This document shows positions 2,497 through 59,218 of a DNA stretch of 64,000 nucleotides, in pieces. Both the position numbers and the translations under genes were made by a program. The stretch spans positions 124,001-188,000 of the forward strand of contig NZ_JAUSVX010000002.1 of assembly GCF_030814995.1 (NCBI RefSeq), written 5' to 3'. How positions within the stretch are numbered: position 1 is the stretch's first letter; every line of letters begins with the position of its first letter. The notes beneath the pieces are model-generated. The model did not search any database. It had not been told where the DNA came from and worked only from the letters and a program-made list of their open reading frames with translations. This DNA comes from Labrys wisconsinensis. Lineage in GTDB: Bacteria > Pseudomonadota > Alphaproteobacteria > Rhizobiales > Labraceae.

Positions 2497-5217
2497 TTGA
2501 CTGACGAGAACGACAAGCGCCCGGGCGACGGCGAGCCGTCCGAGATCCGGTCCGTTTCCATCACCGACGAAATGCGCCGCAGCTATCTCGACTACGCCAT
2601 GAGCGTGATCGTGAGCCGCGCCTTGCCGGACGCCCGCGACGGGCTGAAGCCGGTGCACCGGCGCATCATCTATTCCATGTACGAGAACGGGCACACGCCC
2701 GAGAAGAAATACGTCAAGTCCGCCAACATCGTCGGCGCCGTCATGGGTCAGTACCACCCGCATGGCGACCAGGCGATCTATTTTGCGCTGGTGCGCATGG
2801 CGCAGTTCTTCTCGATGCGGCTGATGCTGGTCGACGGGCAGGGCAATTTCGGCTCGGTCGACGGCGACATGCCGGCGGCCATGCGCTACACCGAATCGCG
2901 CATGTCCAAGGCGGCGGTGGCGCTGATCGACGACATCGACAAGGACACGGTCGATTTCCAGGACAACTACGACGGCACCAGGCAGGAGCCCACCGTCCTG
3001 CCGGCGCAGTTCCCCAACCTCCTGGTCAACGGGGCGGGCGGCATCGCGGTCGGCATGGCCACCAACATCCCGCCGCACAATCTCGGCGAAGTCGTCGACG
3101 CGTGCCTGGCCTATATCGAGAATCCCGGCATCACCATCGACGAATTGACGGAGATCATCCCCGGGCCGGACTTTCCCACCGGTGCCCAGATCATCGGGCG
3201 CAGCGGCATCCGCGCCGCCTACCAGACCGGCCGCGGCTCGATCATCATGCGCGCCACGGCGGCGGTGGAGGAGATCCGCCGGGACCGCGAGGCCATCGTC
3301 GTCACCGAGCTGCCCTACCAGGTCAACAAGGCGACGCTGCAGGAAAACATCGCCGAGCTCGTGCGCGACAAGCGGCTCGAGGGCATCTCCGACGTGCGCG
3401 ACGAGTCCGACCGCAAGGGCATGCGCCTGGTGATCGAGCTCAAGCGCGACGCGGTCGGCGACGTGGTGCTGAACCAGCTCTACCGCTTCACCCAGCTGCA
3501 GACCAATTTCGGCTGCAACATGGTGGCGCTCAACGGCGGCAAGCCGGAGGTGCTCAACCTCAAGGACTTCATCACCGCCTTCGTCGACTTCCGCGAGGAG
3601 GTGATCTCGCGGCGCACCAAGTTCCTGCTCAACAAGGCTCGCGACCGCGCCCATATCCTGTGCGGCCTCGCCACCGCCGTCGCCAATATCGACGAGGTGA
3701 TCCGCATCATCCGCACCAGCCCGGATCCGAACGTGGCGCGCGAGGCGCTGATGGGGCGCGACTGGCCGACCGGCGACATCGCGCCGCTGATCCTGCTGGT
3801 GGACGATCCCAAGCACCCGATGAACCCGGACGGCACCTATCGCCTGTCGGAAGCGCAGGCGCGCGCCATCCTCGACCTGCGCCTCGCCCGCCTGACGGCT
3901 CTGGGCCGCGACGAGATCGGCGAGGAGCTGCAGAAGCTCGCCGACCAGATCCGCGACTATCTCGACATCCTGCGCTCGCGCGCCCGGATCATGGGCATCG
4001 TCCGCAGCGAGCTGGAGGCGATCAAGGCGGCGCACGCGACGCCGCGCCTGACCCAGATCCTCGATTCCGACGCCGATTTCGAGGACGAGGATCTGATCCA
4101 GCGCGAGGACATGGTGGTGACGGTCAGCCATGCCGGCTACGTCAAGCGCGTGCCGCTCTCCACCTACCGGGCGCAGCGGCGCGGCGGCAAGGGCCGGGCC
4201 GGCATGCAGACCCGCGAGGAGGATTTCGTCACCCGCCTGTTCGTGGCCAACACCCACACGCCGGTGCTGTTCTTCTCCTCCAAGGGGCGCGTCTACAAGG
4301 AGAAGGTCTGGCGCCTGCCGCTGGCCACGCCCCAGGGGCGCGGCAAGGCGCTGATCAACCTCCTGCCGATCGAGGGCGACGAGCGGATCACCTCGATCAT
4401 GCCGCTGCCGGAGGACGAGAACTCCTGGTCGACGCTGCACATCATGTTCGCCACCAGCTCCGGCTCGGTGCGGCGCAACGACCTGTCCGACTTCGTGCAG
4501 GTCAACCGCGCCGGCAAGATCGCCATGAAGCTGGAGGAAGGCGAGCAGATCTGCGACGTCTCCATCTGCACCGAGAGCGACGACATCGTGCTGACCACGG
4601 CCGAGGGCCAGTGCATCCGCTTCCCCGTCGGCGAGGTGCGGGTGTTCAAGGGCCGCGATTCCATGGGCGTGCGCGGCATCCGCCTGGAGGAGGGCGACAC
4701 CATCATCTCCATGGCGGTGATCCGCCACATGGAGATCACGCCGGAGGAGCGCGCCACCTATTTCCGCATGCGCCGGGCGGTGCTGGGCGAGGCGGAGAGC
4801 GGCGAAGCGGAGAATGGCGAGGAGGAGGCCGCGGGCCCGGTCGAGATCTCGACCGAGCGCTATGCCGAGCTCTCGGCGGCCGAGCAGTTCATCCTCACCG
4901 TCTCGGAGAACGGCTACGGCAAGCGCACCTCGGCCTTCGAGTACCGGATCACCGGACGCGGCGGCAAGGGCATCGTCGCCATGGCGGTGAACGAGCGCAA
5001 CGGACCGCTGGTCTCGTCCTGGCCGGTGGAGCCCTCCGACCAGATCATGCTGGTCACCGACGGCGGCCAGCTGATCCGCTGCCCGGTGGAAGGCATCCGC
5101 GTCGTCAGCCGCGGCTCGCAGGGCGTGATCGTCTTCAACACCGCCGAGGGCGAGCGCGTGGTCTCGGTCGAGCGCATCAGCGACGACGGCGAGGAGGACG
5201 AGCCGGCGACGGAGTGA
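2497..5217 (+). CDS. gyrA: DNA gyrase subunit A
   Basis: The 906-residue protein is the breaking-rejoining subunit of gyrase. The catalytic tyrosine is Y131 in [10 protein letters not shown]. The GyrA box QRRGGKG near residue 560 identifies gyrase rather than topoisomerase IV. An acidic insertion of about 30 residues near 765-795 interrupts the C-terminal beta-pinwheel and the tail is acidic. The only in-frame start near the conserved N-terminus is TTG at 2497, because a GTG at 2492 runs into TGA. The quinolone-resistance-determining region is unusual: the positions equal to E. coli Ser83 and Asp87 are Gln92 and Phe96, and Phe104 occupies the E. coli Pro95 position. The gene stands alone, with a minus-strand terminator pair beyond its end. 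Confidence 0.97.
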
Positions 5218-5234
5218 GTCGGCGGCCTGTCAAG

Positions 5235-5310
5235 AAAAAAGCCCGGTCGCCTTGCGGCGCCGCGGCTCGTTCAAGAAAGAAAAAAGCGCGGTCGCCTTGC
5301 GGCGCCGCGC
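5235..5310 (-). terminator. Tandem duplicated rho-independent terminator (minus strand)
   Basis: Two 30-bp copies at 5235-5264 and 5280-5309 (45-bp period) differ at one position. Read on the minus strand, the first copy met folds with outer arms GCGCGG/CCGCGC and an inner CGCC/GGCG stem with a four-base loop, followed by six T residues. The second copy folds similarly with an imperfect outer stem and also ends in six T. They lie downstream of the minus-strand gene at 5411-5698 and face the end of gyrA. Confidence 0.75.
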
Positions 5311-5410
5311 TTGGAGTGCCGGGCTTGGGGTCAGACTGCGTGGGGGCCCGGGATCTTGGAGATCGGCGGAACTACGCGCGAGGCCGCGAAAAGTTCCATG
5401 CCTGCGTCAA

Positions 5411-5698
5411 TTAGTCTCCCAGCCTGACGCGGACCAGGATGGTCTCGCCGGGCTTTTCGAAAACCTGGATCAGCGCGCCGGTACGGGCCTTGGCCCGTTC
5501 GACGTCATCCATCGGCGCCGTGGCGCACGCGGCCATCAGCGAGCCGAGGCTGCAGCGGGACGCGGCTTCCGCCACGTCGAGGCGATCGCCGCGGGCGGCC
5601 GCGACCGGGGTGGGGACCTTGGCCATGTCGAGAAGCGAGGCCGCGGCCAGAACGAACAACCCACCACCGACCGCCAAAACGGAACGACGGGGTCTCAT
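5411..5698 (-). CDS. Small exported or membrane-anchored protein of unknown function
   Basis: This 95-residue product is not recognised. It begins MRPRRSVLAVGGGLFVLAAAS, a positively charged start followed by a hydrophobic stretch that fits a signal peptide or a single membrane anchor. The remainder is soluble, has two cysteines near residues 49 and 58, and ends in a short strand-like VFEKPGETILVRVRLGD, suggesting a small periplasmic protein. The gene is monocistronic on the minus strand with two tandem terminators after its stop and an AT-richer upstream region. It could instead be a spurious frame, but the signal-like N-terminus and the terminators argue for a real gene. Confidence 0.6.
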   Translation of the reverse strand: MRPRRSVLAVGGGLFVLAAASLLDMAKVPTPVAAARGDRLDVAEAASRCSLGSLMAACATAPMDDVERAKARTGALIQVFEKPGETILVRVRLGD

Positions 5699-5965
5699 AT
5701 TTTTCGTCTCCCTGACGACTTCTTCAATTTGGACGAGATGTTACACTGTTTCCGATCTGTTCATTCTCAAACTTTCGTGAGCTTGACTGTGTCTTTTGGC
5801 ACACATCGGTTGGGCCGGTAACGACTTGATAACAAACGCCGTGGGCGGGGATATGTTCCATGCGGAACGCGCGCCGTGCCGTGCCCGGCGGATCGCCTGC
5901 GCGCGCCCCGGCTTGCGCCGCGCCGGCCGGGCCTGTAACCCCTGTTCCATGACGAAAGCGTCGCG

Positions 5966-6466
5966 ATGAACGCCTCCCGTACCGCCTTCTATGCCGGTTC
6001 CTTCGATCCGCTGACCAATGGCCATGTCGACGTGATCCGCCACGCCTGCGCCGTCGCCGACCGCCTGGTGGTGGCGATCGGCGTGCATGCCGGCAAGACG
6101 CCGCTGTTCTCCGCCGAGGAGCGGGCCGAGATGATCCGCGAGGATTGCGGGCCGGTGACCGGACGGACGGCGCTCGAGGTCATCACCTTCGCCGACCTCG
6201 CGGTCGATGCCGCCCGCCGCGTCGGCGCCAGCCTGCTGATCCGGGGCCTGCGCGACGGCACCGACCTCGACTACGAGATGCAGATGGCCGGCATGAACGC
6301 GGCGCTGGCGCCGGAGATCCAGACGGTGTTCCTGCCGTCCTCGCCGATCGTCCGCCCCATCACCGCCACGCTCGTGCGCCAGATCGCCGCCATGGGCGGC
6401 GACGTCTCGGGCTTCGTGCCCGCCGGCGTGCTGCGCCGCCTGAAATCGCGCTTCCCCAGGTCCTAG
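5966..6466 (+). CDS. coaD: Pantetheine-phosphate adenylyltransferase
   Basis: The enzyme transfers AMP from ATP to 4'-phosphopantetheine, the penultimate step of coenzyme A synthesis in the cytoplasm. The 166-residue length is normal. The nucleotidyltransferase signature [11 protein letters not shown] is at residues 10-20, with the TNGH form of the (T/H)xGH motif at 17-20, and [17 protein letters not shown] is the conserved central block. In the C-terminal ATP-binding motif, [16 protein letters not shown] replaces the more common ISSSLVREI form. The gene lies 47 nt upstream of a cyclophilin gene in the same direction, as in many alphaproteobacteria. Confidence 0.96.
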
Positions 6467-7631: not shown

Positions 7632-9368
<1,737 letters not shown>

Positions 9369-10573: not shown

Positions 10574-11992
10574 ATGCAGGCCGGACCCACGCCGTCGGAC
10601 CAGGCCATTCCCTCTCCCGCCGGCTCCTATCCCGTGCGGGCGGGGAACCTGGTGCGGCCGCTCGTCGACAGCGGGCCGACCTTCCGCCGCATCGGCGCGG
10701 CAATCGCGGCCGCCCGCCACAGCGTCTTCGTGACCGCGACCTTTCTCGACCCGGATTTCGTCATGCCGGACGGGCAGGGCACGTTGTTCGACCTGCTCGA
10801 CCGGGCCGCCGGACGCGGCCTCGACGTCCGCGGCCTGTTCTGGCGTCCCAACCCTCAGAGCAGCGGCTATGGCCGCACCTTCCCGGGCTCGGCCGAGGAT
10901 CGCGCGCTGCTGGTGCGCCGTGGCTCGGGCTTCTCCATCCGCTGGGACCGGGCGGCCGGCCCCTATTGCCAGCACCAGAAGAGCTGGCTGATCGATGCGG
11001 GGAAGCCCGGCGAGACCGCCTTCGTCGGCGGCATCAACCCGACCTTCGCCGCCTTCGAGCCCGGCCATGCCGGGGAGAACGAGCGCCACGACGTCTATGT
11101 CGAGATCGCCGGCCCCTGCGCCTGCGACGTCCACCACAATTTCGTCCAGCGCTGGAACGAGGCGAGCGAGCGTGACGCCGCCGACGGCCGGTGGGGACCG
11201 AACGACAGCGACCTCGCCTTTCCCGAGCGGCCCGGCGCGCCGTGCGGCACCAGCCTGGTGCAGATCCAGCGCCAGATCCCGGCCGGTCGTTACGGCGACG
11301 GCCATGCCAGCCCGGGCGGCGAGCCGTGGGACATCGCCGCCGGCGAGCGCACCGTCCTGGCGCAGTACCAGCTCGCGATCGCCGCCGCCCGCCGCACCAT
11401 CTATGTCGAGAATCAGGCCTTGCCCGTGCCGGAGATCGCGGCCGCGCTGGCGGCGGCGCTCGATCGCGGCGTGGAGGTGGTCCTCCTCGTGCCGACCGAG
11501 CCGGAAGAATCCGTGCGCGCCGTCCGCCATGACCCGGCCCGTCGGGCGTTCTTCGCCGGGATCGAGGCGCTGGGGCAGCGCTGCAACTTCCTGCTCGCCG
11601 GGCTCGCCGGGCGGGCCCGGCTCGCCGGGATCGCCGGGCCGAACGCTGGCGGCAACCGCTGCCCGGTCTATGTCCACGACAAGATCATGCTGGTCGACGA
11701 TGCCTGGGCGACCATCGGCTCGTGCAACCTCCACGGCTATTCGCTCGACGGCCATGGCGAGATGAACGCGGCGATCTGGGATGCGGCCGTGGTCCGCGCC
11801 CTCCGGCGCACGCTGCTGGCCGAGCATCTCGATCTCGACACCGCCGGTCTCGACGACCGTGCGGCGCTGCGGCTCTTCCGCGAGACGGCGAGCGCCAACC
11901 GGGCGCGGTGGCGGGCCGGCGAAGCCGGCTGGCAGGGCCTTGCCATTGCGCTGGACCCCGCGACCTACGGCGTGGAGCGCTTCTCCGGCTGA
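10574..11992 (+). CDS. Phospholipase D-like protein with two HKD motifs
   Basis: The 472-residue product carries two PLD phosphodiesterase motifs: HQKSWLID at about residue 134 and HDKIMLVDDAWATIGSCN at about 368, each providing the His-Lys of the active site. This bilobal arrangement is that of phospholipase D and cardiolipin synthase-like enzymes, which cleave or transfer phosphatidyl groups. No signal peptide or membrane helix is evident, unlike canonical cardiolipin synthases. The ATG at 10574 is preferred over one at 10535 because GGAG lies ten bases upstream. The gene is flanked by unrelated genes and gives no pathway context; a nuclease role cannot be excluded. Confidence 0.85.
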   Translation: MQAGPTPSDQAIPSPAGSYPVRAGNLVRPLVDSGPTFRRIGAAIAAARHSVFVTATFLDPDFVMPDGQGTLFDLLDRAAGRGLDVRGLFWRPNPQSSGYGRTFPGSAEDRALLVRRGSGFSIRWDRAAGPYCQHQKSWLIDAGKPGETAFVGGINPTFAAFEPGHAGENERHDVYVEIAGPCACDVHHNFVQRWNEASERDAADGRWGPNDSDLAFPERPGAPCGTSLVQIQRQIPAGRYGDGHASPGGEPWDIAAGERTVLAQYQLAIAAARRTIYVENQALPVPEIAAALAAALDRGVEVVLLVPTEPEESVRAVRHDPARRAFFAGIEALGQRCNFLLAGLAGRARLAGIAGPNAGGNRCPVYVHDKIMLVDDAWATIGSCNLHGYSLDGHGEMNAAIWDAAVVRALRRTLLAEHLDLDTAGLDDRAALRLFRETASANRARWRAGEAGWQGLAIALDPATYGVERFSG

Positions 11993-40466: not shown

Positions 40467-42017
40467 ATGACCCATGACAGCATCCTCATCATCGATTTCG
40501 GCTCCCAGGTCACCCAGCTGATCGCCCGGCGCGTGCGCGAGGCCGGCGTCTATTGCGAGATCCATCCGTTCCAGAGTGCCGCCGAAGCCTTCGCCAAGCT
40601 GAAGCCCAAGGGCGTGATCTTCTCCGGCGGCCCGGCCTCGGTCTGCGATGCCGGCAGCCCCCGCGCCCCACAGGCGGTGTTCGATTCCGGCGTGCCGATC
40701 CTCGCCATCTGCTACGGCCAGCAGACCCTGGCGGCCCAGCAGGGCGGCAAGGTCGAGGGCGGGCACGCCCGCGAGTTCGGCCGCGCCGATGTCGAGATCA
40801 AGGCGGCGAGCCCGCTCTTCGCCGGGGTCTGGGAGGTGGGCGGGCGCTATCCCGTGTGGATGAGCCATGGCGACCGCGTCACCGAGCTGCCGCCGGGCTT
40901 CGTCGTGGTCGGCACCTCGGAGAACGCCCCCTTCGCCATCGCGGTGGACGAGGGCCGGCGCTACTACACCACCATGTTCCATCCCGAAGTGGTGCACACG
41001 CCGGACGGGGCCAAGCTGCTGCAGAACTTCGTGCACAAAATCGTCGGCCTCAAGTCCGACTGGACCATGGCGGCCTATCGCCGCGAGATGATCGACAAGA
41101 TCCGCCGCCAGGTCGGCGACGGCAAGGTGATCTGCGGCCTCTCCGGCGGCGTCGACTCGGCGGTCGCGGCGGTGCTGATCCACGAGGCGATCGGCGAGCA
41201 GCTCACCTGCGTCTTCGTCGACCACGGCCTGATGCGGGCCGGGGAAGCCGAACAGGTGGTCGGCCTGTTCCGCGACCATTACAACATCCCGCTGGTGCAT
41301 GTGGACGCGGCGGACCTGTTCCTCGGCGCCCTCGCCGGCGTCAGCGACCCCGAAACCAAGCGCAAGACCATCGGCAAGCTGTTCATCGAGGTGTTCGAGG
41401 CCGAGGCCAAGAAGGTCGGCGGCGCTGAGTTTCTGGCGCAGGGCACGCTCTATCCCGATGTCATCGAAAGCGTCTCGTTCTCGGGCGGACCCTCGGTCAC
41501 CATCAAGTCGCACCACAATGTCGGCGGCCTGCCCGAGCGCATGCACATGGCGCTGGTGGAGCCCTTGCGCGAGCTGTTCAAGGACGAGGTCCGGGCGCTG
41601 GGCCGCGAGCTCGGCCTGCCCGAAGCCTTCGTCGGCCGCCACCCCTTCCCGGGCCCGGGCCTCGCCATCCGCGTGCCCGGCGACATCACCCGCGACAAGC
41701 TCGACATCCTGCGCAAGGCCGACACGATCTACCTCGACGAGATCCGCAAGGCCGGCCTCTACGACAAGATCTGGCAGGCCTTCGCCGTGCTGCTGCCCGT
41801 GCGCACGGTGGGCGTGATGGGCGACTACCGCACCTACGACCACGTGTGTGCTTTGCGCGCGGTAACCTCGGTCGACGGCATGACCGCGGATTTCTTCCCG
41901 TTCGACATGGGGTTTTTGGGGCGGGCGGCGACGCGGATCATCAACGAGGTGAACGGGATCAATCGGGTGGTGTACGACGTGACGTCGAAGCCGCCGGGGA
42001 CGATCGAGTGGGAGTGA
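40467..42017 (+). CDS. guaA: GMP synthase (glutamine-hydrolysing)
   Basis: The 516-residue enzyme aminates XMP to GMP. The amidotransferase triad is C82 (AICYGQQ), H172 and E174 (MFHPEV). The PP-loop ATP pyrophosphatase motif [10 protein letters not shown] is at about 224-233, and the dimerisation domain ends in the canonical TIEWE. The last roughly 170 bases, from about 41846, use GC-poor codons (TGT, GCT, TTG, GTA, TTT) unlike the rest of the gene, while the displaced copy at 53066-53261 uses GC-rich ones. This suggests the present 3' end was supplied by the incoming island. The gene is the attachment site of both islands. Confidence 0.97.
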
Positions 42018-42312: not shown

Positions 42313-42530
42313 ATGAAAACCATGTCGGCGCGGGAGGCGAAGAACGCCTTCGGCTTGATGATCGACACCGCACGCAGGGCCGGTGCTCATCGCAAAAGGC
42401 GGGCATGGCGTCGTGATGGTCATCTCCGTGGAAGAATACCAACGGCTGGACGACGCCTCCAATGCAGCGTCGGCGCAGGGGACATCGCGGCGACCGAGCG
42501 TATTATCGGCCGCGGAGGCAAGGGACGGGC
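42313..42530 (+). pseudogene. Frameshifted Phd/YefM-type antitoxin remnant
   Basis: Frame 1 reads MKTMSAREAKNAFGLMIDTA, the classic Phd/YefM start. After codon 23 the homology continues in another frame as PVLIAKGGHGVVMVISVEEY followed by QRLDD. A change of one base near 42380 explains the shift. The second frame then runs on without a stop into hsdM, so the C-terminus is damaged as well. No toxin partner is next to it. It directly precedes hsdM, and its transcription would read into the restriction operon. Confidence 0.75.
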
Positions 42531-44513
42531 ATGGGCAACGGCGATCTGAGCTGGATCACGAACTTCATCTGGGGCATCGCCGACGATGCACTCCGGGATC
42601 TCTATGTCCGGGGCAAATATCGCGACGTGATCCTGCCGATGACGGTGCTCCGGCGGCTCGACGCCGTGCTCGAGCCTACGAAACAAGCCGTTTTGTCGAT
42701 GAAAGCCAACCTCGACAAGGCGGCCATCACCAACCAGGACGCCGCCCTTCGGCAGGCGGCCGGACAGGCATTCTACAACATGTCGCGCTTCACGCTGCGC
42801 GATCTGCGCAACCGCGCGAGCCAGGCGCAATTGAAGGCCGACTTCGAAGCCTATCTCGACGGCTTCTCGCCGAATGTGCAGGAGATCCTCGACAATTTCG
42901 AGTTCCGCAACCAGATCCCGAAGCTGTCCAAGGCTGATGTCCTGGGCACGTTGATCGAGAAATTTCTCGATGCCTCGATCAATCTCGGCCCCAGGCCGAT
43001 CCTGAACGGCAACGGCTCGGTGAAGCATCCGGCCCTCGACAACCACGCCATGGGCACGATGTTCGAGGAACTCGTCCGCCGTTTCAACGAGGCGAACAAC
43101 GAAGAGGCGGGCGAACACTGGACGCCGCGCGACGCGGTCAAACTCATGGCGAGGCTGATCTTCGCACCGATCGCCGACCAGATCACGTCCGGCACATACC
43201 TGCTCTATGATGGTGCCTGCGGCACCGGCGGCATGTTGACGGTGGCCGAAGAAGCGCTTAACGATCTTGCCGCGCAGCGGGGAAAGCAAGTCTCGACGCA
43301 CCTGTTCGGGCAGGAGATCAACGCCGAAACCTACGCCATCGCCAAGGCCGACCTGCTGCTGAAGGGAGAAGGCGAGGAGGCCGACAACATCGTCGGCGGG
43401 CCGGAATGGTCGACCCTGGCGAACGACGCCTTCCCGTCCCGCGAATTCGATTTCATGCTGTCGAATCCGCCCTACGGCAAGAGCTGGAAGAGCGACCAGG
43501 AGCGCATGGGCGGCAAGGCGGGGATACGCGATCCGCGCTTCGTGATCGAGCATGCGGGCGACGCTGAATACAGCCTCGCCACGCGGTCCAGTGACGGGCA
43601 GATGCTGTTCCTGGCGAACATGCTGTCCAAGATGAAGCGCGATACGCCGCTCGGTAGCCGCATCGCCGAAGTCCACAACGGCTCCTCGCTGTTCACCGGC
43701 GACGCCGGAAGCGGCGAGAGCAATGTGCGGCGCTGGGTCATCGAGAACGACTGGCTGGAAGCCATCGTCGCCCTGCCGTTGAACATGTTCTACAATACCG
43801 GCATCGCGACTTATGTCTGGGTGCTGACCAACCGCAAACCGGGGCACCGGCGCGGCAAGGTTCAACTCATCGACGCGACGGCGTGGTTCAACCCGCTGCG
43901 CAAGAACCTCGGCAAGAAGAACTGCGAACTGGCCGAAGGCGATATCGAACGCATCGTCGAAACGTTTCAGACATTCGAGGAGACGGAGCAATCGCGCATC
44001 TTCGATAACGCCGAATTCGGCTATTCGAAGGTGACGGTCGAGCGGCCACTTCGCGCCACGGGGATTGATCCCGGACGCGCCTATGCGCCTAGGGAGATTA
44101 AGGTACTGAAGGATGAGGGGCGGATCTCCGAGGACGGGGCGCTCGTCATCCGGCGCATTCACAAGGCCGGTAAGGTCTCGCCTGATCCTTTGCGCGGGCT
44201 GTTCCCCGTGATGATCGGCGGCAAGCGCTGCGTGGTGGAGTACGAATCTGACGGCGACTTGCGCGGCACCGAGACGGTGCCGTTGAAGGAGCCGGGCGGG
44301 ATCGAAGCCTTCATGCGCCGCGAGGTGCTTCCGCACGCCCCCGACGCCTGGATTGACGAGGCGAAGGTCGCCATCGGCTATGAGATCAGCTTCACGCGCC
44401 ACTTCTACAAGCCTCAACCACTGCGCACACTGGAGGCGATCCGTGCCGATATCCTGGCGTTGGGAAGGGAAACTGAAGGGCTGATGGCCGACATCATCGG
44501 AGTCGGGCGATGA
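42531..44513 (+). CDS. hsdM: Type I restriction-modification system methyltransferase subunit
   Basis: HsdM is the adenine-N6 methyltransferase subunit. The 660-residue protein has an N-terminal HsdM helical domain (ISWITNFIWGIADDALRD-like start, then KYRDVILPMTVLRRLD), the SAM-binding motif DGACGTGGML at about 227-236 and the catalytic SNPPYG at about 311-316. Its length exceeds typical 500-residue subunits because of a C-terminal extension after about 480. The ATG at 42531 begins MGNGDLSWITNFIWGIADD. It overlaps hsdS by four bases (ATGA). First intact gene of the hsdM-hsdS-darT-darG-hsdR operon. Confidence 0.95.
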   Translation: MGNGDLSWITNFIWGIADDALRDLYVRGKYRDVILPMTVLRRLDAVLEPTKQAVLSMKANLDKAAITNQDAALRQAAGQAFYNMSRFTLRDLRNRASQAQLKADFEAYLDGFSPNVQEILDNFEFRNQIPKLSKADVLGTLIEKFLDASINLGPRPILNGNGSVKHPALDNHAMGTMFEELVRRFNEANNEEAGEHWTPRDAVKLMARLIFAPIADQITSGTYLLYDGACGTGGMLTVAEEALNDLAAQRGKQVSTHLFGQEINAETYAIAKADLLLKGEGEEADNIVGGPEWSTLANDAFPSREFDFMLSNPPYGKSWKSDQERMGGKAGIRDPRFVIEHAGDAEYSLATRSSDGQMLFLANMLSKMKRDTPLGSRIAEVHNGSSLFTGDAGSGESNVRRWVIENDWLEAIVALPLNMFYNTGIATYVWVLTNRKPGHRRGKVQLIDATAWFNPLRKNLGKKNCELAEGDIERIVETFQTFEETEQSRIFDNAEFGYSKVTVERPLRATGIDPGRAYAPREIKVLKDEGRISEDGALVIRRIHKAGKVSPDPLRGLFPVMIGGKRCVVEYESDGDLRGTETVPLKEPGGIEAFMRREVLPHAPDAWIDEAKVAIGYEISFTRHFYKPQPLRTLEAIRADILALGRETEGLMADIIGVGR

Positions 44514-45952
44514 TCGGTGGGCTTCGCCCATATTCGATGATGAGGCCGAGTGGTGCGCCGTGGCTCGGCGACGTGCCCGCGCATTGGGATATGCGGAGGA
44601 TCAAAACGCTCCTGCGAGAGGTTGATAACCGCACCAGGACCGGTGAAGAGAGGCTTCTGTCTCTGAGGATGCGGCAGGGGCTTGTCGACCACATTGAATC
44701 AGGCGGCAAGTCAATCCCGGCAGAGTCGCTGGTCAATTTTAAGATCATTGAAGCCGGACAGGTGGTCATGAACCGCATGCGAGCTGCTGCCGGTTTGTTC
44801 GGCGTGGCCAGCGTTCGCGGTCTAGTGAGTCCAGATTACGCCATTTTCGAGCCGAAGCCCGATGCGTTCAGCCCCTATCTTCTTGAAGCTTTCCGATTGC
44901 CGTCATTGTCGACAGTGTTTCGCTCGGAATCAAAGGGCCTCGGAACGGGTGAGGCTGGCTTCTTGCGGCTCTACACGGATCGGTTTGGCTCCATACCTGT
45001 TCCCTATCCGCCTCTCGATGAGCAGCGACTGATCGTGCGATTTCTGGACTGGCACGGCGGCCGGACCACGAAGCTGATCCGCGCCAAGAAGAAGCTCATC
45101 GCGCTGCTGAACGAGCAGAAGCAGGCCATCATCCACCGCGCCGTCACGCGCGGTCTTGACCCCAGCGTGAAGCTCCAGTCAACTCAAATTCCAGCGCTCG
45201 GTCACGTTCCCCAGCACTGGATGGTCGTCAGGCTACGAAACATCGTCGAGCGAATCGAGCAGGGGGTTAGCCCGCAGGCTGAGGGGGGACTTGCTGAAGC
45301 TAACTCCTGGGGTGTCTTGAAATCCGGCTGCGTCAACCGAGGTCTGTTCCGTGACACGGAACACAAGCGCCTCAGATCTGATTTTACAATTAACCCGAAT
45401 ATCATTGTTTCTCTTGGGGACGTACTGGTTTCCCGCGCAAGCGGTTCGCCGTCTCTTGTCGGGTCGGTCGCCAGGGTCAATTCGTTGCGGTATAGACTTA
45501 TACTTTCAGATAAGACCTTTCGCTGCATGTTCAAGAAAGCTGTAGACAGCGACTTTATGGTTCTCGCCATGAATAGTCGATACTACCGCGATCAAGTCGA
45601 ACAAGCTATCAGTGGTGCAGAAGGTCTTGCAAATAATTTACCTGTATCGTCTCTTAAGGACTTTATGTTCGTTGTGCCACCTCTGAAGGAAGCGCAGTAT
45701 ATCGCAGTAAAACTCGGAGAGCGCGTCGGTGCGATCGATATTGCAATCAGTCAGGTCGAACGCGAGATTTTCCTGATCCAGGAGTTCCGAACCCGCCTGA
45801 TCGCCGATGTCGTCACCGGCAAGCTCGATGTGCGCGCCCTCGCCACCAGTCTGCCAGAGATCATCGAACCTGAGGCGATCGGCGAACCGATCGACGACGA
45901 GGACCTCGACGATGTGACCGACGACACTGAGAACGAGGAGGCCGCCGCCTGA
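44510..45952 (+). CDS. hsdS: Type I restriction-modification system specificity subunit
   Basis: HsdS holds the two target-recognition domains that determine the methylated and cleaved sequence. The 480-residue protein has TRD1 (about residues 14-175) ending in VPYPPLDEQRLIVRFLD, a conserved coiled-coil spacer (TTKLIRAKKKLIALLNEQKQ), TRD2 (about 225-400) beginning LGHVPQHWMVVRLRNI and ending FVVPPLKEAQYIAVKL, and a final helix with an acidic tail. TRD2 DNA (about 45300-45720) is markedly AT-richer than the neighbours, the usual sign of domain swapping. Confidence 0.93.
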   Translation: MIGGLRPYSMMRPSGAPWLGDVPAHWDMRRIKTLLREVDNRTRTGEERLLSLRMRQGLVDHIESGGKSIPAESLVNFKIIEAGQVVMNRMRAAAGLFGVASVRGLVSPDYAIFEPKPDAFSPYLLEAFRLPSLSTVFRSESKGLGTGEAGFLRLYTDRFGSIPVPYPPLDEQRLIVRFLDWHGGRTTKLIRAKKKLIALLNEQKQAIIHRAVTRGLDPSVKLQSTQIPALGHVPQHWMVVRLRNIVERIEQGVSPQAEGGLAEANSWGVLKSGCVNRGLFRDTEHKRLRSDFTINPNIIVSLGDVLVSRASGSPSLVGSVARVNSLRYRLILSDKTFRCMFKKAVDSDFMVLAMNSRYYRDQVEQAISGAEGLANNLPVSSLKDFMFVVPPLKEAQYIAVKLGERVGAIDIAISQVEREIFLIQEFRTRLIADVVTGKLDVRALATSLPEIIEPEAIGEPIDDEDLDDVTDDTENEEAAA

Positions 45953-45954
45953 CC

Positions 45955-46596
45955 ATGCCTGTTCACGCCAGCCCAAAAATCTACCACATCGTCCATGTCG
46001 ACAATCTTGCTTCGATCGTCGCGGACGGTTGTCTGTGGTCGGATGCGGTGATGGTACAACGGCAGGGCGGGACGGTCATCGGCATGGGCGGCATCAAGCG
46101 GCGACGGCTTGGTCTCCCTGTCTCCTGCCACAACGGGTTGAAGGTGGGCGATTGTGTTCCGTTCTATTTTTGTTCGCGATCGATCATGCTGTATGTTATC
46201 CATTGCGCAAATCATTCCGAGCTTGCCTATCGGGGTGGGCAACAGCCGATTGTCCATCTCGAGGCCGATCTGCATCAGGTCGTGCAATGGGCACAGGCAA
46301 ATGGGCAGCGCTGGGCGTTCTCGCTCTCGAACGCGGGGGCGGTCTATACCCAGTTCCGCGCCCGGCTCGACCAATTGGACGAGATCAACTGGGACTCCGT
46401 TGCGGCGACCGATTTCCGATCGGCGGACATCAAGGAAGCCAAACAGGCAGAGTTCCTGGTCCAGCGATCGTTTCCGTGGGACCTGGTCGAACGCATCGGC
46501 ATCCACTCCCAAGGCGTGGCGTCAAGGGTGGCGAACGCAATGCAGGGTGCCGCGCATCGGCCGAGGATTGAGATCAAGCGAGACTGGTACTACTGA
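45955..46596 (+). CDS. darT: DarT-type DNA ADP-ribosyltransferase toxin (DUF4433)
   Basis: DarT adds ADP-ribose from NAD to single-stranded DNA bases and blocks replication. The 213-residue protein has the NAD-binding start YHIVHVDNLASIVADGCLWSD, the conserved IKRRRLGLPVSCHNGLKVGD with the substrate-orienting arginine near 49-51, VPFYFCSRSIMLYVI, and the catalytic glutamate E166 in KQAEFLVQ. All expected catalytic positions are present, so it should be active. It begins 2 nt after hsdS and 13 nt before its antidote darG, inside the restriction operon. Confidence 0.9.
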   Translation: MPVHASPKIYHIVHVDNLASIVADGCLWSDAVMVQRQGGTVIGMGGIKRRRLGLPVSCHNGLKVGDCVPFYFCSRSIMLYVIHCANHSELAYRGGQQPIVHLEADLHQVVQWAQANGQRWAFSLSNAGAVYTQFRARLDQLDEINWDSVAATDFRSADIKEAKQAEFLVQRSFPWDLVERIGIHSQGVASRVANAMQGAAHRPRIEIKRDWYY

Positions 46597-46609
46597 GGGG
46601 GAGATGGCG

Positions 46610-47671
46610 ATGATCGAACTCAAGACCGGTGACATCCTGAGGGCGGACGTCGAAGCGCTGGTCAACACGGTCAACTGCGTCGGCATCATGGGTCGTGGCA
46701 TCGCGCTTCAGTTTAAAAACGAGTTCCCGGAGAATTTCGCGGCTTATGAAGTCGCCTGCGTGCGCGAAGATGTGCAGCCCGGCAAGATGTTCGTGTTCGA
46801 GACGCGCACGCTCACCAACCCGAAGTTCATCATCAACTTCCCGACCAAGCGCCACTGGCGTGGCAAGAGCCGGATGGAGGATATCGACTCCGGCCTGAGG
46901 GCGCTGGTGGAGGAAATCCGCCACCGCCGCATCCGCTCCATCGCGATCCCTCCGCTCGGAAGCGGTCTGGGCGGCCTGAACTGGGCCGACGTTCGCCCGC
47001 GCATCGAAGCAGCGCTACGTGGGATCGATGGCCTTCACGTCATCATCTTCGAGCCGAACAGCGCGCCGGTGGCGACGAAGTCGCGCGAGGTACCGAACAT
47101 GACGGCTGGGCGCGCCGCACTGGTCGTCCTGATGAACCGCTACCTCGGCGGGTTGATGGACCCGTTCGTGACGCTGATCGAGCTTCAGAAGCTGATGTAT
47201 TTCATGCAGGAGGCGGGGGAGCCGCTTCGTCTGAACTATGTCAAGCATCACTACGGTCCCTATGCGGACAATCTGCGCCATGTCCTGACGAAGATCGAAG
47301 GGTATCTCGTGTCGGGGTATCACGACGGCGGCGATGCTCCCGACAAACAGCTTGAACTGGTGCCCGGCGCCGTAAAGGATGCTGAAGCCTTCCTGGCCCA
47401 GGACACCGCGACGCGAAGCCGTTTTGACCGCGTTGGCGAGTTGGTTGAGGGTTTCGAAACGCCGTTTGGACTTGAATTGCTCGCAACCGTCCATTGGGTC
47501 GCCACCCGCGAGCATGTGACCAGCGTCGAGGACGCGACGGCGAAGGTCTATGGCTGGAACGACCGCAAGAGGCGTTTTTCGCCACGCCAAGTCGGCATTG
47601 CCTACGATACTCTCCGCGCGAATGGGTGGCTATCCGATAGTTCTCCCAGGGGGAGCGTCTCACTTGCCTAA
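46610..47671 (+). CDS. darG: DarG-type macrodomain antitoxin
   Basis: DarG removes ADP-ribose from DNA and also binds DarT. The 353-residue protein has an N-terminal macrodomain (about 1-150) with NTVNCVGIMGRGIALQFK, FPTKRHWRGKS containing the catalytic lysine, and PPLGSGLGGLNWADV. The C-terminal part (about 165-353), starting AALVVLMNRYLGGLMDPFVTLIELQKLMY, is the conserved DarT-neutralising domain. ATG at 46610 is favoured because GAGGGGG gives proper spacing; ATG at 46604 is too close. Its stop overlaps the hsdR start region by 8 nt. Confidence 0.9.
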   Translation: MIELKTGDILRADVEALVNTVNCVGIMGRGIALQFKNEFPENFAAYEVACVREDVQPGKMFVFETRTLTNPKFIINFPTKRHWRGKSRMEDIDSGLRALVEEIRHRRIRSIAIPPLGSGLGGLNWADVRPRIEAALRGIDGLHVIIFEPNSAPVATKSREVPNMTAGRAALVVLMNRYLGGLMDPFVTLIELQKLMYFMQEAGEPLRLNYVKHHYGPYADNLRHVLTKIEGYLVSGYHDGGDAPDKQLELVPGAVKDAEAFLAQDTATRSRFDRVGELVEGFETPFGLELLATVHWVATREHVTSVEDATAKVYGWNDRKRRFSPRQVGIAYDTLRANGWLSDSSPRGSVSLA

Positions 47672-50600
47672 CGGCCGTCCCGCGATACCCCTCGCGGTTC
47701 GGAGGGCGGTCTTGCTGGAGGCGCGCCATCGCTGCGCCGTTTGCTGCGAGCCGACGCCTCTTCAACGAGCGCACATTCGCCCGTGGAGCAGGAGCCGCGA
47801 TCATAGCATCGAGAACCTGCTCGCTCTCTGTGCCAATTGTCATCAGAGGGCTGACGCGGAACACTGGGGTGAGCAGGCTCTCAAGGCGTACAAGCATGAC
47901 CCCTGCGCCCTCAGAACAAACCCCAATATACCAATCTCAATCGAGCAAAAGGTCATCGTCGATCTCATCGTCGGGATGCCAACGCCCGACAGCATGACGC
48001 CAGGCGAGCGAACGCGATTGGTCTCCATCGTTGCTGCCTATGTTGGGGTGCGCGTCGGCGAGATTTCGATCTTGTCCGTTTCTCCGGCAAACAGCATCCG
48101 AGTCCGCCTGATGATGCCGAAACATGGCGCCGACAAGCTTCTTGCGGGAGTGGCTGCACGCGACATGGATATGTTGGCGTTCCTGGAAGACATCCCGATT
48201 TTAGGCGCAGAGCCAGTCGACGCACCCGGCAATCCCACCACAGACATGAGCGAGCGCGGTCTTGAAGAGCTCGTTGTCCGAGACATGACGGGACGTTCGA
48301 CCCCAGGCTCCGATGAAGGGTTCTCGGAGGATCCCGAGCCTTTCGTCGGACTGCACAATTGGCTGCTGGGCGATCCGAAAGCCTATGATCGAGCTTGGAC
48401 CGTCGATCTTGTCCAATTGCGTGCTTTCATCGCGGCGACTCAGCCGTCCCTGCTGCTGGCGCTCGACCTTGATAGCGACAGCCCGGTCCGCCAGAAATTC
48501 CTGGCCCGCCTGCAAGGTGAGATCGGCAAGCGCGGCGTGATCGGCGTTTTGCAGCATGGGATCAAGCATGGCCAGCATGACATCGACCTGTTCTATGGCA
48601 CCCCGTCGCTCGGCAATCCGAAAGCCGCAGAGCGTTTCGCGCTGAATCGGTTCTCGGTCACGCGCCAGCTTCGCTACAGCCGCGACGACACAGCTCGTGC
48701 TCTCGATCTGGCTCTGTTCGTCAATGGCTTGCCTGTCGCGACGTTCGAGCTGAAGAACAGCCTCACGAAGCAGACGGTCGAGGATGCAGTCGAGCAGTAC
48801 AGGCGCGACCGTGATCCCCGCGAGAAGCTGTTCGAGTTCGGCCGCTGCATGGTCCATTTTGCGATGGACGATGCCCAGGTGATGTTCTGCACTCAGCTGA
48901 AGGGCAAAGCGTCCTGGTTTCTGCCGTTCAACAAGGGATGGAGCGATGGGGCGGGCAATCCGCCCAATCCCAACGGATTGAAGACGGACTATCTCTGGAG
49001 GGACATTCTCACGCCGCTGGGGCTTACCGACATCATCGAGAACTACGCGCAGATCGTCGAGCGCAAGGATGCCAGGTCGGGCCGGGTCAAGCGCGACCAA
49101 CTCTTCCCGCGCTTCCATCAGCTCGATGTGGTCCGCAAACTGCTGGCCGATGCCAAAGAAAAAGGTGCCGGCCGGCGTGTGCTGATCCAGCATTCGGCGG
49201 GGTCAGGAAAGTCGAACTCAATCGCATGGCTGGCACACCAACTCGTGCGGCTCGCAAACAGCACAGGTCAGGTGTTCGACTCGGTGGTCGTGGTGACCGA
49301 CCGGCGGATACTCGACCAGCAAATCCGTGACGTCATCAAGCAGTTCACGCAAGTGGGTGCGACGGTCGGCCATGCCGAACACTCCGGTGATCTCCGACGC
49401 TTCATCGCGGACGGCAAGAAAATCATCATTACGACTGTCCAGAAATTCCCGTTCGTCCTGGATGACATTGGTGCGCAACATAAGAATCGCCGCTTTGCAA
49501 TCATCATCGATGAAGCTCATTCCAGCCAAGGCGGCAAGGCAGCCGCAGCCCTGAACGCCGCCCTGACCGGAGCGGGGGAGGGTGATGACGACGAGACCAT
49601 CGAGGACAAGATCAACACGATCATGGAGCAGCGAAAGATGCTCCCGAACGCGAGCTATTTTGCCTTCACCGCGACGCCCAAGAACAAGACTTTAGAAATA
49701 TTCGGTGAGCATCATCCGGAAGGCGATGCAGTCAAGCACCGCCCGTTCCATAGTTATACAATGAAGCAGGCGATCGACGAGGGTTTCATTCTAGACGTAC
49801 TCCGCTACTACACACCGGTCGACAGCTATTATCGACTGGTCAAGACGATCGACGTCGACCCGGAATTCGATGTCAAGCGTGCCACCAAGAAGTTACGCCA
49901 CTATGTCGAGAGCAATGACCACGCCATCCGCCTCAAGGCGGAAATCATGGCCGATCATTTTCATGAGCAGGTTCTCGCGCTGAACAAGATCGGCGGTCAG
50001 GCCCGCGCGATGGTGGTGACCTCTGGTATCGAGCGAGCTATCCAGTATTTCCACGCGATGAGTACCTATCTCGCCGAACGCAAGAGTCCCTATCGCGCAA
50101 TCGTCGCCTTCTCGGGCGAATACGAGTTTGGAGGAGCCAAGGTTACGGAAGCGGACTTGAACGGCTTCCCTTCCAAGGACATTGCTGATCAGATCGAGAA
50201 AGATCCGTACCGATTCCTGATCTGCGCCGACAAATTTCAGACCGGCTACGATCAGCCTTTGCTTCATACGATGTATGTCGACAAGGCGCTCTCAGGCGTC
50301 AGGGCGGTACAGACGCTTTCGAGGCTGAATCGGGCCCATCCGCAGAAGTATGACGCATTCGTGCTCGACTTCATGAACGACATCGAGACGATCCGCTCGT
50401 CGTTCGAGACCTTCTATCGCACGACTATCCTCAGCGATGAGACGGATCCCAACCGGCTGCACGACCTGAAGGCGGCGTTGGACGAATATGAGGTCTACGA
50501 AACCGATCACGTAGACCGGCTTGTTGAATTCTATCTCGCAGGCGCCGACCGAGATCGGCTCGACCCGATCTTGGATGCGTGCGTTGCGGCGTACAGAGCG

Positions 50601-51242
50601 GACCTCGATGAGGACGGACAGGTTGATTTCAAGGGAAAGGCCAAAGCATTCACCAGGACGTACGCGTTCATCTCCTCGATCCTGCCCTTCACGAACGCCG
50701 ATTGGGAGAAGCTCTCGATCTTCCTCAACTTTCTGGTGCCGAAGCTACCTGCGCCGCGTGAAGAAGACCTCTCGAAGGGCATCCTCGAGGCGATCGATAT
50801 GGACAGTTACCGAGTCGAGAAACAGGCGGTCCAGCACGTGCAATTGGCCGATCAGGACGTCGAGATCGATCCCGTCCCCACCGATGGCGGCGGCCATAGA
50901 GTGGCCCCTGAACTTGACCGGCTTTCCAACATCATTCGAAATTTCAACGATCTGTTCGGCAACATCACCTGGGAGGACGCCGACCGTATCCGGCGGTTGA
51001 TCGCCACCGAGATTCCGGACAAAGTCGCCGCCAATACCGCCTATCAAAATGCGAAGAAAAATTCTGATAGACAAAACGCCCGCATCGAACACGACAAGGC
51101 GCTGGGAAACGTCATTATCGGATTGATGAAGGACGACACGGAGCTTTTCAAGCAGTTCAGCGACAATCCGGAATTCAGGCGATGGCTGGCCGATACGATA
51201 TTTTCTGCTACATACGGCCAGTCGACCCCTTCATCGCCTTAA
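47664..51242 (+). CDS. hsdR: Type I restriction endonuclease subunit HsdR with fused N-terminal HNH domain
   Basis: TTG at 47664, with GGGGAG eight bases upstream, opens a 1192-residue frame. Residues 1-194 are an extension: an HNH nuclease module with zinc cysteines C24/C27 and C56/C59, H37, N51 and H60, followed by an unassigned alpha/beta segment (about 90-185). From M195 (ATG at 48246) the sequence is a standard HsdR: MSERGLEELVVRDMTG start, PD-(D/E)xK site D348/E362/K364, Walker A K516, DEAH 616-619 and motif VI RAVQTLSRLNRAHP. There is no stop between the two parts. Whether a shorter HsdR also starts at 48246 cannot be told. HsdR translocates and cuts unmodified DNA with HsdMS. Confidence 0.9.
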   Translation: MPNGRPAIPLAVRRAVLLEARHRCAVCCEPTPLQRAHIRPWSRSRDHSIENLLALCANCHQRADAEHWGEQALKAYKHDPCALRTNPNIPISIEQKVIVDLIVGMPTPDSMTPGERTRLVSIVAAYVGVRVGEISILSVSPANSIRVRLMMPKHGADKLLAGVAARDMDMLAFLEDIPILGAEPVDAPGNPTTDMSERGLEELVVRDMTGRSTPGSDEGFSEDPEPFVGLHNWLLGDPKAYDRAWTVDLVQLRAFIAATQPSLLLALDLDSDSPVRQKFLARLQGEIGKRGVIGVLQHGIKHGQHDIDLFYGTPSLGNPKAAERFALNRFSVTRQLRYSRDDTARALDLALFVNGLPVATFELKNSLTKQTVEDAVEQYRRDRDPREKLFEFGRCMVHFAMDDAQVMFCTQLKGKASWFLPFNKGWSDGAGNPPNPNGLKTDYLWRDILTPLGLTDIIENYAQIVERKDARSGRVKRDQLFPRFHQLDVVRKLLADAKEKGAGRRVLIQHSAGSGKSNSIAWLAHQLVRLANSTGQVFDSVVVVTDRRILDQQIRDVIKQFTQVGATVGHAEHSGDLRRFIADGKKIIITTVQKFPFVLDDIGAQHKNRRFAIIIDEAHSSQGGKAAAALNAALTGAGEGDDDETIEDKINTIMEQRKMLPNASYFAFTATPKNKTLEIFGEHHPEGDAVKHRPFHSYTMKQAIDEGFILDVLRYYTPVDSYYRLVKTIDVDPEFDVKRATKKLRHYVESNDHAIRLKAEIMADHFHEQVLALNKIGGQARAMVVTSGIERAIQYFHAMSTYLAERKSPYRAIVAFSGEYEFGGAKVTEADLNGFPSKDIADQIEKDPYRFLICADKFQTGYDQPLLHTMYVDKALSGVRAVQTLSRLNRAHPQKYDAFVLDFMNDIETIRSSFETFYRTTILSDETDPNRLHDLKAALDEYEVYETDHVDRLVEFYLAGADRDRLDPILDACVAAYRADLDEDGQVDFKGKAKAFTRTYAFISSILPFTNADWEKLSIFLNFLVPKLPAPREEDLSKGILEAIDMDSYRVEKQAVQHVQLADQDVEIDPVPTDGGGHRVAPELDRLSNIIRNFNDLFGNITWEDADRIRRLIATEIPDKVAANTAYQNAKKNSDRQNARIEHDKALGNVIIGLMKDDTELFKQFSDNPEFRRWLADTIFSATYGQSTPSSP

Positions 51243-51434: not shown

Positions 51435-52622
51435 TTAAAGGGCTAATGCTCGTTCCTCTGACGTCCCTTCATCCAAGGCTTGCTTATCATAGGTGTCCAT
51501 TATGGCATCGTGGAGAGCGGCTACCCGCATATCTCCGCCTTTCAGCCCAGCTGCATACAATCCCCACTCGTCGGCCGTTCGAGTTTGAAGTGCGCTCACG
51601 AGACGATCGGGATCGAAGTCAGGTCCTGGCCGGGACATAATCCGAACAAGGCCGCCGAAAATTGCTCCACCGTGCGTCAGCTTCTGATTTGGGAAAGCCA
51701 CGGCCATATTCGTGAGTACGGCCGAGGTAATCGCTGGGCCAAACCTTCGGACCGAACTCGCCATAGCTGAAGTGAACGCAATTTCACCTGGGCGCCATGC
51801 GCTCGACGATGTATTGCGGGCCACCTGCAGTCCTGCGTCAGCGACGAGTTGCTGGATTTCGAGTGCGTCTTCGTCCGCTGCGGCAAGAGCCGCGAAATAG
51901 TCATCGAGCCGGTTCATCGGCTTTCGTGCTCGATTGGCAAGGATGAACATGCGCGCTTCCTCTTTGGTGCTCTCGTACCTGAAGACGCAGCACGGGAGCT
52001 GGGGAATATCGTCCCTTTTTGAAGCGGCCATCCATCGGTGTTGACCATCGATGATCGTGAGCGTGTCGTCAGCGCGTCGGGAGACGACCAGCGGTGCACA
52101 CAAGCGCCAATCGAACTTGGCGGCTATGCTTGTGATCAGTCTGCGCGAGGCTTCGTTGTCGGTTGACCTCTGATAAGCGCCATCGATCGAGAGTCTATTC
52201 AGATGGATCCACTCGATCGACGGTTGCGAGCCGACGGGCGGCGAATAGCGCGCGCGATAGTCGATCAACTTCGAGGGCTTCTTTTTTGCTTTGCTCGTCG
52301 CTCGTTTGCCCGTTCCAAACTGGTGGACTTTCCCAGGACCGACATTTGCGATCGTCGGCTCCGTGATTATCTTTAGGCCTTCGATAAAATCAGCAGCATC
52401 CTCTATCGTGCGCACCCAAGCGGTGCCGCGGTGTTCTATGACAATGTTTCCAAGATGGACACGGGCGCGGCCCAGTTCCGTCTCCAGTACGAAGGTTCCG
52501 TTTGCTTCGATGCCCCCGGCCATATGCCGTGGCACCCAATCAGGCATGGGAAACTCTCCATGTTTCCAGATCCGTATATCGCCGCCGTGCATGCTAGCCG
52601 AAAGGTGCTGATTGTATGTCAT
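51435..52622 (-). CDS. ParB-like (DGQHR-type) nuclease-domain protein
   Basis: The 395-residue protein has the ParB/sulfiredoxin-fold signature [10 protein letters not shown] at about residues 191-200, preceded by [15 protein letters not shown] (the opening strand of the domain) and followed by [25 protein letters not shown] basic linker, [13 protein letters not shown] (106-118), separates it from an N-terminal domain of about 100 residues that I do not recognise. No helix-turn-helix like that of plasmid ParB is evident. It is convergent with the restriction operon inside island 1. It could be an orphan DNA-binding protein or a component of the defence locus. DndB-like proteins share the DGQHR motif but not this layout. 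Confidence 0.75.
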
Positions 52623-52980: not shown

Positions 52981-53261
52981 CTACACCACCATGTTCCCTC
53001 CGGAGGTGGCGCACACGCCCGACGGGGGCCAGGCTCCTCGCCAACTTCGTGCGCGAAATCATCGGCGACTACCGTACTTACGACCACGTCTGCGCCCTGC
53101 GCGCCGTGACCTCGGTGGACGGCATGACCGCGGACTTCTTCCCGTTCGACATGGCGTTCCTCGGGCGGGCGGCGACGCGGATCATCAACGAGGTGAACGG
53201 GATCAACCGGGTGGTGTACGACGTGACGTCGAAGCCGCCGGGGACCATCGAGTGGGAATGA
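52981..53261 (+). pseudogene. Internally deleted guaA remnant at the right end of island 1
   Basis: Bases 52981-53065 match guaA codons about 167-194 (TTMF-x-PEV-x-HTPDG, with one frameshift), then the match jumps to codons 452-516 through the TIEWE end. The join, at GGCGACTAC, fits a deletion of about 770 bp between short identical sequences. The final 65 codons are intact in frame. Codon use is GC-rich like the chromosome, unlike the 3' end of the active guaA. The upstream piece means that more than a simple attachment-site duplication occurred. Confidence 0.85.
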
Positions 53262-53317
53262 GGGGGAGTACCGCGGAGTAGTAGCGGATAGCAGGGGGCG
53301 CTCGGGCGAATCCTAGG

Positions 53318-59164: not shown

Positions 59165-59218
59165 CGGGTGGTGTACGATGTGACGTCGAAGCCGCCCGGC
59201 ACGATCGAGCGGGAGTGA
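59165..59218 (+). pseudogene. Third copy of the guaA 3' end
   Basis: This stretch of 54 bp encodes [17 protein letters not shown] and a stop, matching the end of GuaA except for a Trp to Arg change. Homology begins abruptly at 59165 and stops at the TGA. It marks the far end of island 2 as a degenerate attachment-site copy. Confidence 0.85.

Follow-up and report, generated by a model that had tools for sequence, protein, structure and literature searches.

An HNH nuclease and a TRADD-N-like domain fused in frame to a predicted type I restriction subunit in Labrys wisconsinensis

Type I restriction enzymes are usually described as carrying one nuclease domain in each R subunit, the HsdR protein. 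Here we examine a gene in a 64,000-nucleotide stretch of the Labrys wisconsinensis genome (contig NZ_JAUSVX010000002.1, positions 124,001 to 188,000; hereafter the window) that is predicted to encode an R subunit preceded, in the same reading frame, by an HNH nuclease and a second small domain. The nearest arrangement in print is an HsdR protein with a GIY-YIG insertion (PMC1564403). Bacterial TRADD-N domains have been described as residing between variable N-terminal effectors, HNH being one of those named, and C-terminal regulators, and as carrying a conserved tiny-Ser motif (the uS motif) in the turn between strands beta2 and beta3 (Kaur et al. 2021, eLife; PMC8195603). An RRM-like fold characterises the TRADD-N superfamily. 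In type I operons, darTG genes have been found between hsdS and hsdR, a location regarded as a cargo site (PMC5179494, PMC12255303) and described as a potential recombination hotspot, in an E. coli island of such a kind (PMC5179494 / PMC12255303). RloF genes also are mentioned at the hsdS-hsdR site (PMC4619093).

The frame from 47664 to 51242 is open throughout and would yield 1192 residues, comprising an HNH nuclease, a domain of approximately 100 residues and a complete HsdR. An earlier note made from the sequence without database searches (the original prediction) had proposed that an HNH module and a second small domain are fused in frame to HsdR, placing two nuclease sites in one chain. 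Both proposals are borne out at the level of sequence, by the open frame, by matches to Pfam families and by the residues of the two sites. The features of the gene are the following.

47664..51242, plus strand: HNH - TRADD-N-like - HsdR fusion protein, 1192 amino acids, TTG start (open frame, Pfam domains, 4 further fused homologues)
47649..47655, plus strand: ribosome-binding-like GGGGGAG, 8 nucleotides before the TTG (from the sequence)
47733..47852, plus strand: HNH nuclease domain, residues 24-63 (PF01844, E 7.8e-7; PF13391, E 5e-5)
47919..48218, plus strand: TRADD-N-like domain, about residues 86-185 (PF13820 match in one relative, no TRADD-N match in the window copy; Ser144 invariant)
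48093-48095, plus strand: invariant Ser144 (6 of 6 modules)
48234..48236, plus strand: codon 191 (CCC), the place of the native HsdR start in unfused relatives (starts of two such relatives compared with the fused ones)
48237..51242, plus strand: HsdR restriction/translocase subunit (HSDR_N, SWI2_SNF2, ResIII, T1R_D3; TIGR00348; PDB 2w00)

Translation is predicted to begin at the TTG at 47664, which overlaps the stop codon of the preceding darG gene (TTGCCTAA). The GGGGGAG upstream of this codon agrees with the proper ribosome site originally proposed for it, and purine runs 6-9 nucleotides ahead of the start can also be seen by eye in the four fused homologues described below (L008, L009, L010 and L054). 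A mechanically defined open reading frame is longer in the window, beginning at an ATG at 47550. The open frames of L009 and L010 extend just one codon upstream of the equivalent TTG or GTG, which fixes the start in these two cases. Neither a stop nor a frameshift interrupts 47664-48245, the region in which the original prediction had named either as evidence against a fusion.

The HNH domain exceeds the PF01844 cut-off (29.6 versus 21.4 bits). We aligned six modules, those of the window, L008, L009, L010, L054 and L011, the last of which is not attached to HsdR; L003, L019, L007 and loci with only the HNH part were left out. All of the residues originally assigned to a Cys4 HNH site (C24/C27, H37, N51, C56/C59 and H60) are present in the window and are invariant in all six modules. 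These include the His-Asn-His residues and zinc cysteines of HNH nucleases. This invariance, which extends to the module attached to a different partner, makes it very unlikely that the extension serves as a regulatory or DNA-binding appendage in which the HNH fold contacts DNA or zinc but does not cut and the second domain docks to the complex, even though EcoKI HsdR provides a precedent for a required N-terminal extension (PMC12707154). Two loci considered as carriers of the second domain were rejected, since the second domains of L003 and L019 resemble one another (46%, E 6e-24) but gave no match to the studied domain by hmmsearch or blastp; a scan had reported L019 as matched over residues 5-159. 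These loci (L003 1237-1740, minus strand; L019 5887-6489) combine a related HNH with another C-terminal domain, which is about 80 residues long and common to the two, and represent a further HNH-plus-small-domain family.

The remainder of the protein matches HSDR_N (PF04313, E 9.9e-20), PF18766 (E 5.3e-30), ResIII and T1R_D3. The TIGR00348 hsdR model gives 211 bits, below its cut-off of 284.55, and the nearest solved structure found in a PDB search is HsdR 2w00 (E 7e-15). The window protein has GSGKS at 513, DEAH at 616, FTATP at 668, LSRLNR at 885 and D348...E362-x-K364, which we take to be HsdR nuclease and motor motifs. Such motifs are found in all four fusions searched for them, and the HsdR part of L054 was identified by Pfam matches. 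With PD-(D/E)xK and SF2 motor domains in one chain, and hsdM and hsdS encoded alongside, the protein is by sequence a complete type I R subunit with predicted ATP-dependent restriction.

Five fused proteins were found in all. A scan of viral contigs with the extension returned a single locus, the IMG/VR contig L008, whose HsdS-DarT-DarG-fusion order is that of the window. The corresponding scan of genome contigs returned nine loci, six of which match the HNH part only and three of which match nearly the whole extension: L009 (a Mesorhizobium metagenome-assembled genome, MAG) and L010 (Bradyrhizobium sp. 138) have the HNH-domain-HsdR order, and in L011 (an Acidobacteriota MAG) a sigma-54 activator and a helix-turn-helix come after the HNH and the domain. 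A module profile matched 4 of 189 genomes of the same order, two of them at full length, namely the window's own and G857, which carries the fifth HNH-domain-HsdR protein (L054); four genomes of the same genus among the 189 gave no match to this profile. Across the class, the extension matched 5 of 385 genomes, at full length only in the window's own, and across the phylum a profile of the second domain matched 1 of 398, again the window's own. Within that genome, the fusion protein has one match at E <= 0.001, which is itself. A phage collection contained no match to the window domain and, for the L011 module, only HNH pieces (4 records). A plasmid collection likewise gave only HNH pieces (1 record with the window extension, 2 with that of L054), and viral scans with the domain alone gave no locus beyond the contig already known. 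Overall, the module is both rare and scattered in its distribution.

Codons of four fusions (window, L008, L009 and L010; six pairs, with L054 left out) differ mostly at third positions, as in the L008 and L010 extensions (33, 9 and 81 differences at first, second and third positions). For this pair, the ratio of nonsynonymous to synonymous substitution rates (dN/dS) of the extension is 0.086. The L009-L010 value of 0.032 is untrustworthy because synonymous difference is near saturation (0.745). The HsdR part gives dN/dS values of 0.043-0.050 in all six pairs. In four of the six, the rate of change is highest in the second domain, lower in HNH and lowest in HsdR, and the order is slightly broken by HNH in L008-L010 and by the domain in L009-L010. 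Counting against a firm reading of these data, the other four extension pairs are saturated, and their ratios of nonsynonymous to synonymous difference proportions (pN/pS) are 0.17 (L008-L009) and 0.28-0.32 (window pairs). As judged from these codons, the fusion shows signs of purifying selection. The same fused frame in four further places, which had been named originally as the comparison to make, together with the third-position bias, confirms at the sequence level that the fusion is real and more than chance. A sequencing artefact joining two genes is ruled out by the five fused frames.

The fusion gene is the last of five in an operon, in the order hsdM, hsdS, darT, darG and the fusion gene, and the four genes that precede it are listed here.

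42462..44513, plus strand: hsdM methyltransferase (N6_Mtase, HsdM_N)
44510..45952, plus strand: hsdS specificity subunit (Methylase_S; PADLOC Specificity_I, E 1.4e-89)
45955..46596, plus strand: DarT toxin of the DarTG toxin-antitoxin pair (NF048013, E 1.3e-74)
46598..47671, plus strand: DarG antitoxin (NF048014, E 1.9e-139), its stop codon overlapping the TTG of the fusion gene

Of 240 genomes searched in the class, 17 (counting the window's own) have relatives of the HsdR part at E <= 1e-100, and the upstream region was inspected in the five nearest (L046, L047, L031, L048 and L049). L046, with an HsdR 85% identical to that of the window, has the order hsdM-hsdS-darT-darG-hsdR without the module. 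In L047, L031 and L048, hsdS directly precedes hsdR, and L049 is cut by a contig end and is uninformative on fusion. By this comparison, the module is a cargo that the hsdS-hsdR site can carry or lack, and DarTG occupies the same site.

These relatives also reveal what became of the native start of HsdR. The hsdR genes of L046 and L047 begin with GTG/ATG-AAA-ACC-GA[CT]-AC[CA], which aligns to window codons 191-195. Codon 191 reads CCC (window), GGC (L008), GCC (L009), GAG (L010) and AGA (L054), such that a start codon is absent from this place in all five fusions. The native start thus lies four codons before the ATG at 48246 that had been suggested as the canonical HsdR start, and that suggestion does not hold. 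It also had been suggested that internal initiation at 48246 produces a short HsdR together with the full-length form. The window does have this ATG, but the position corresponds to native Thr4 and reads GTC, GTT, GTT and ACG in the other four fusions. Because the native start is gone in all five and M195 is unique to the window, the short form is highly improbable. An ATG at codon 208 is present in three of five fusions (window, L008 and L010) and lacks a good ribosome site; the window shows nothing like GGAG ahead of 48246 or of codon 208. One observation in favour of internal initiation, which counts against a fused form alone, comes from L054: an in-frame GTG (8042-8044) there precedes the native start place by two codons and has a good ribosome site, GAGGGAGG, a short distance upstream. 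From these alignments, the fusions have lost the native HsdR start, and the fused form is probably the only form made.

The history of the fusion bears on whether its parts work together. In the HsdR trees, the unfused L046 falls within a group (100/100) that includes the window, L008, L009 and L010. One tree places L046 and three fused rows apart from L010 (97/97), a fork left open in the other tree. L054 falls outside a set that contains unfused HsdRs, with a support of only 83/79. The fused state needs two changes in one tree and three in the other, two of them forced. In the unrooted tree of the six modules, those of L054 and L011 form a group separate from the remaining four (Shimodaira-Hasegawa-like approximate likelihood ratio test, 97.9; bootstrap, 99). 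The HsdR trees do not show a single origin of the fusion; the topologies are compatible with a module that was repeatedly gained, lost or exchanged, and the fusion may have had one origin or more. Such turnover could mean that a mobile HNH cargo gene was joined to hsdR by chance, leaving parts that are independent and share only their expression. In favour of such a passive joining, the operon of L046 is the same, DarTG included, but lacks the module, the hsdS-hsdR site is a described cargo site (PMC12255303, PMC5179494), and a lone insertion of GIY-YIG into an HsdR was considered to be perhaps of no relevance (PMC1564403). We nevertheless consider it improbable: the fused frame, with its third-position bias, has been kept in five places down to 52% identity in the extension; the HNH and the second domain were never seen as a separate gene among the loci opened; and more than one origin of the fusion, if correct, would also argue against it.

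The original prediction regarded the second segment as small and adaptor-like, a view supported by a near-threshold TRADD-N match in a relative and by the effector-domain-regulator layout of the proteins. The L011 copy matches PF13820 (NCOA6_TRADD-N) at E 1.1e-4 and 22.4 bits (E 2.8e-4 within the whole protein and 1.6e-4 when a shorter piece is used). None of nine decoys of the L011 domain matched TRADD-N, and their best match to any family had E 0.0055; only the L011 match therefore stands out. PF13820 also was the sole match of a consensus of the six copies (E 0.13, in nearly the same register). Ser144 lies in an A-N-S sequence and would fall in the predicted turn corresponding to that of the published motif. 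Moreover, the domain sits where a TRADD-N domain is expected, between an HNH effector and a following regulator, either HsdR (five proteins) or the sigma-54 activator (L011).

Several results weigh against this assignment. The cut-off of the curated profile is 22.5 bits, 0.1 bit above the L011 score, and we consequently call the domain TRADD-N-like without filing it as a member. The match of L010 to PF20694 (TRADD-like_N; E 0.066) is not significant and is no better than the decoys. The window, L008, L009 and L054 copies have no TRADD-N match in Pfam, and the window copy has no significant Pfam match of any kind. PF13820 at E <= 0.01 matched 0 of 398 genomes, the window's own included, and 0 of 14 control genomes, which speaks for the specificity of the model and also means that it is blind to the window's copy. 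PF20694 gave six weak matches over 385 genomes of the class, none above the cut-off and in about the number expected by chance at E 0.01. A profile of the domain searched against PDB found no chain at E <= 10. Finally, the residue before Ser144 is Asn, at a position where the published motif has a tiny residue. On balance, the second domain is quite likely to be a TRADD-N domain.

The sequences themselves show that the fusion exists, that it is conserved and under purifying selection, that its catalytic residues are intact, that the native start has been lost and that the module is modular. We propose, with a rough probability of one in two, that HsdR is both the sensor and the motor of a latent HNH DNase tethered through the adaptor, such that the type I system carries a second effector on its R subunit. 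An HNH DNase with a TRADD-N-like adaptor would have entered the hsdS-hsdR cargo site and become joined to HsdR in one reading frame. Bound to HsdM and HsdS, HsdR would sense an unmethylated site and act as the ATP-driven motor, while the adaptor would hold the HNH as a latent nuclease. Once the motor is engaged, the adaptor could deploy the HNH by contact or clustering, adding its cleavage of invading DNA to that of the PD-(D/E)xK site. Against this proposal, L046 lives without the module, which is thus dispensable for the upkeep of the system.

The main rival, drawn by analogy with EcoprrI-PrrC, is a guard model, wherein the HNH and adaptor form a suicide backup that is silent in the type I complex and is freed to cut host DNA when a phage blocks restriction. 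PrrC provides the precedent in a type I operon (PMC3874165), bacterial TRADD-N proteins have been proposed to act in apoptosis-like counter-invader systems (PMC8195603), and another abortive system, DarTG, occupies the same operon. However, a nuclease that is covalently fused would be more difficult to set free than a separate subunit, there is no known anti-restriction trigger in this case, and an HNH on a DNA-bound motor would be well placed for cutting foreign DNA. We judge the guard model unlikely. Slightly less doubtful, and still tentative, is the possibility of a TRADD-N conflict system with a restriction enzyme as its sensor, in which engaged or inhibited HsdR complexes cluster via the adaptor, a kind of domain found in death signalling of both bacteria and animals, and switch on the HNH, linking restriction to a response of the programmed-death type.

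The surroundings of the operon and of its relatives hold further observations. The 3' end of guaA (window 40467-42017) is repeated at 53061-53265 (205 bases, 91%), joined to an earlier guaA piece at 52981-53066 (82.6%), and again at 59165-59218 (54 bases, 92.6%). These repeats place the restriction operon in an apparent island at the guaA 3' end, possibly followed by a second island. Adjoining the operon is a gene for a 395-amino-acid DUF6551 protein (window 51435-52622, minus strand) with weak DGQHR (below the cut-off) and ParB-like matches. Between hsdS and the fusion gene of L009 is a darT remnant (7859-7954; 32 codons at 62.5%, about 120 bases), which indicates that DarTG decayed there while the fusion stayed. 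SIR2-like, nucleotidyltransferase-like (below the cut-off) and pentapeptide ion-channel genes lie beside the same operon (L009 11787-15514). In L054, a GmrSD_N (DUF262) gene (4278-6074) is present between hsdM and hsdS, and a resolvase gene (10992-11606, minus strand) lies behind the fusion operon. The HNH-TRADD-N-like-sigma-54 activator gene of L011 directly follows two TIR-pentapeptide genes in a defence-like cluster (468-2830 and 3057-5195).

A literature search on TRADD-N or HNH with HsdR or type I restriction, and on DarTG with type I systems, found no report of this fusion; subscription journals lay mostly outside the search. The architecture points to a defence enzyme that carries a second weapon of its own. 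If true, a conserved R subunit with an added HNH and adaptor-like domain would mean that a restriction motor can double as the sensor of a different effector. It would also tie restriction-modification to the effector-adaptor-sensor proteins, which have domains in common with animal death signalling.

Each of the closest described systems shares some part of this arrangement. Type I operons with DarTG carry darTG between hsdS and hsdR as in the window, and no HNH or other hsdR extension is mentioned in the available text on them (PMC5179494, PMC12255303). EcoprrI-PrrC likewise ties a latent nuclease to a type I system and encodes it in the operon (PMC3874165). This is a resemblance only, because PrrC is a separate protein with an RNA target, whereas the window's nuclease is covalently attached and is an HNH. 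The HsdR protein MCA0838 also has a second nuclease domain in an R subunit whose close relative lacks it; however, that domain is a GIY-YIG inserted near residue 800, called unique in the paper, whose available text mentions no adaptor domain (PMC1564403). Bacterial TRADD-N conflict proteins share the small domain between N-terminal effector and C-terminal regulator, along with the near-cut-off PF13820 match in a relative. Their C-terminal partners named in the available text are repeats, STAND NTPase, caspase, PAS, GUN4, bDLD3 and HTH, and neither the term 'HsdR' nor a TRADD-N protein with HsdR is found in the main text (PMC8195603), whereas the partner here is a type I R subunit. Known type I R subunits, of which 2w00 is the nearest solved, share the HSDR_N nuclease, the SF2 motor, T1R_D3 and the hsdM-hsdS operon with the fusion, which differs from them in its 190-residue N-terminal module of HNH and TRADD-N-like domains, absent from four close relatives with readable starts.

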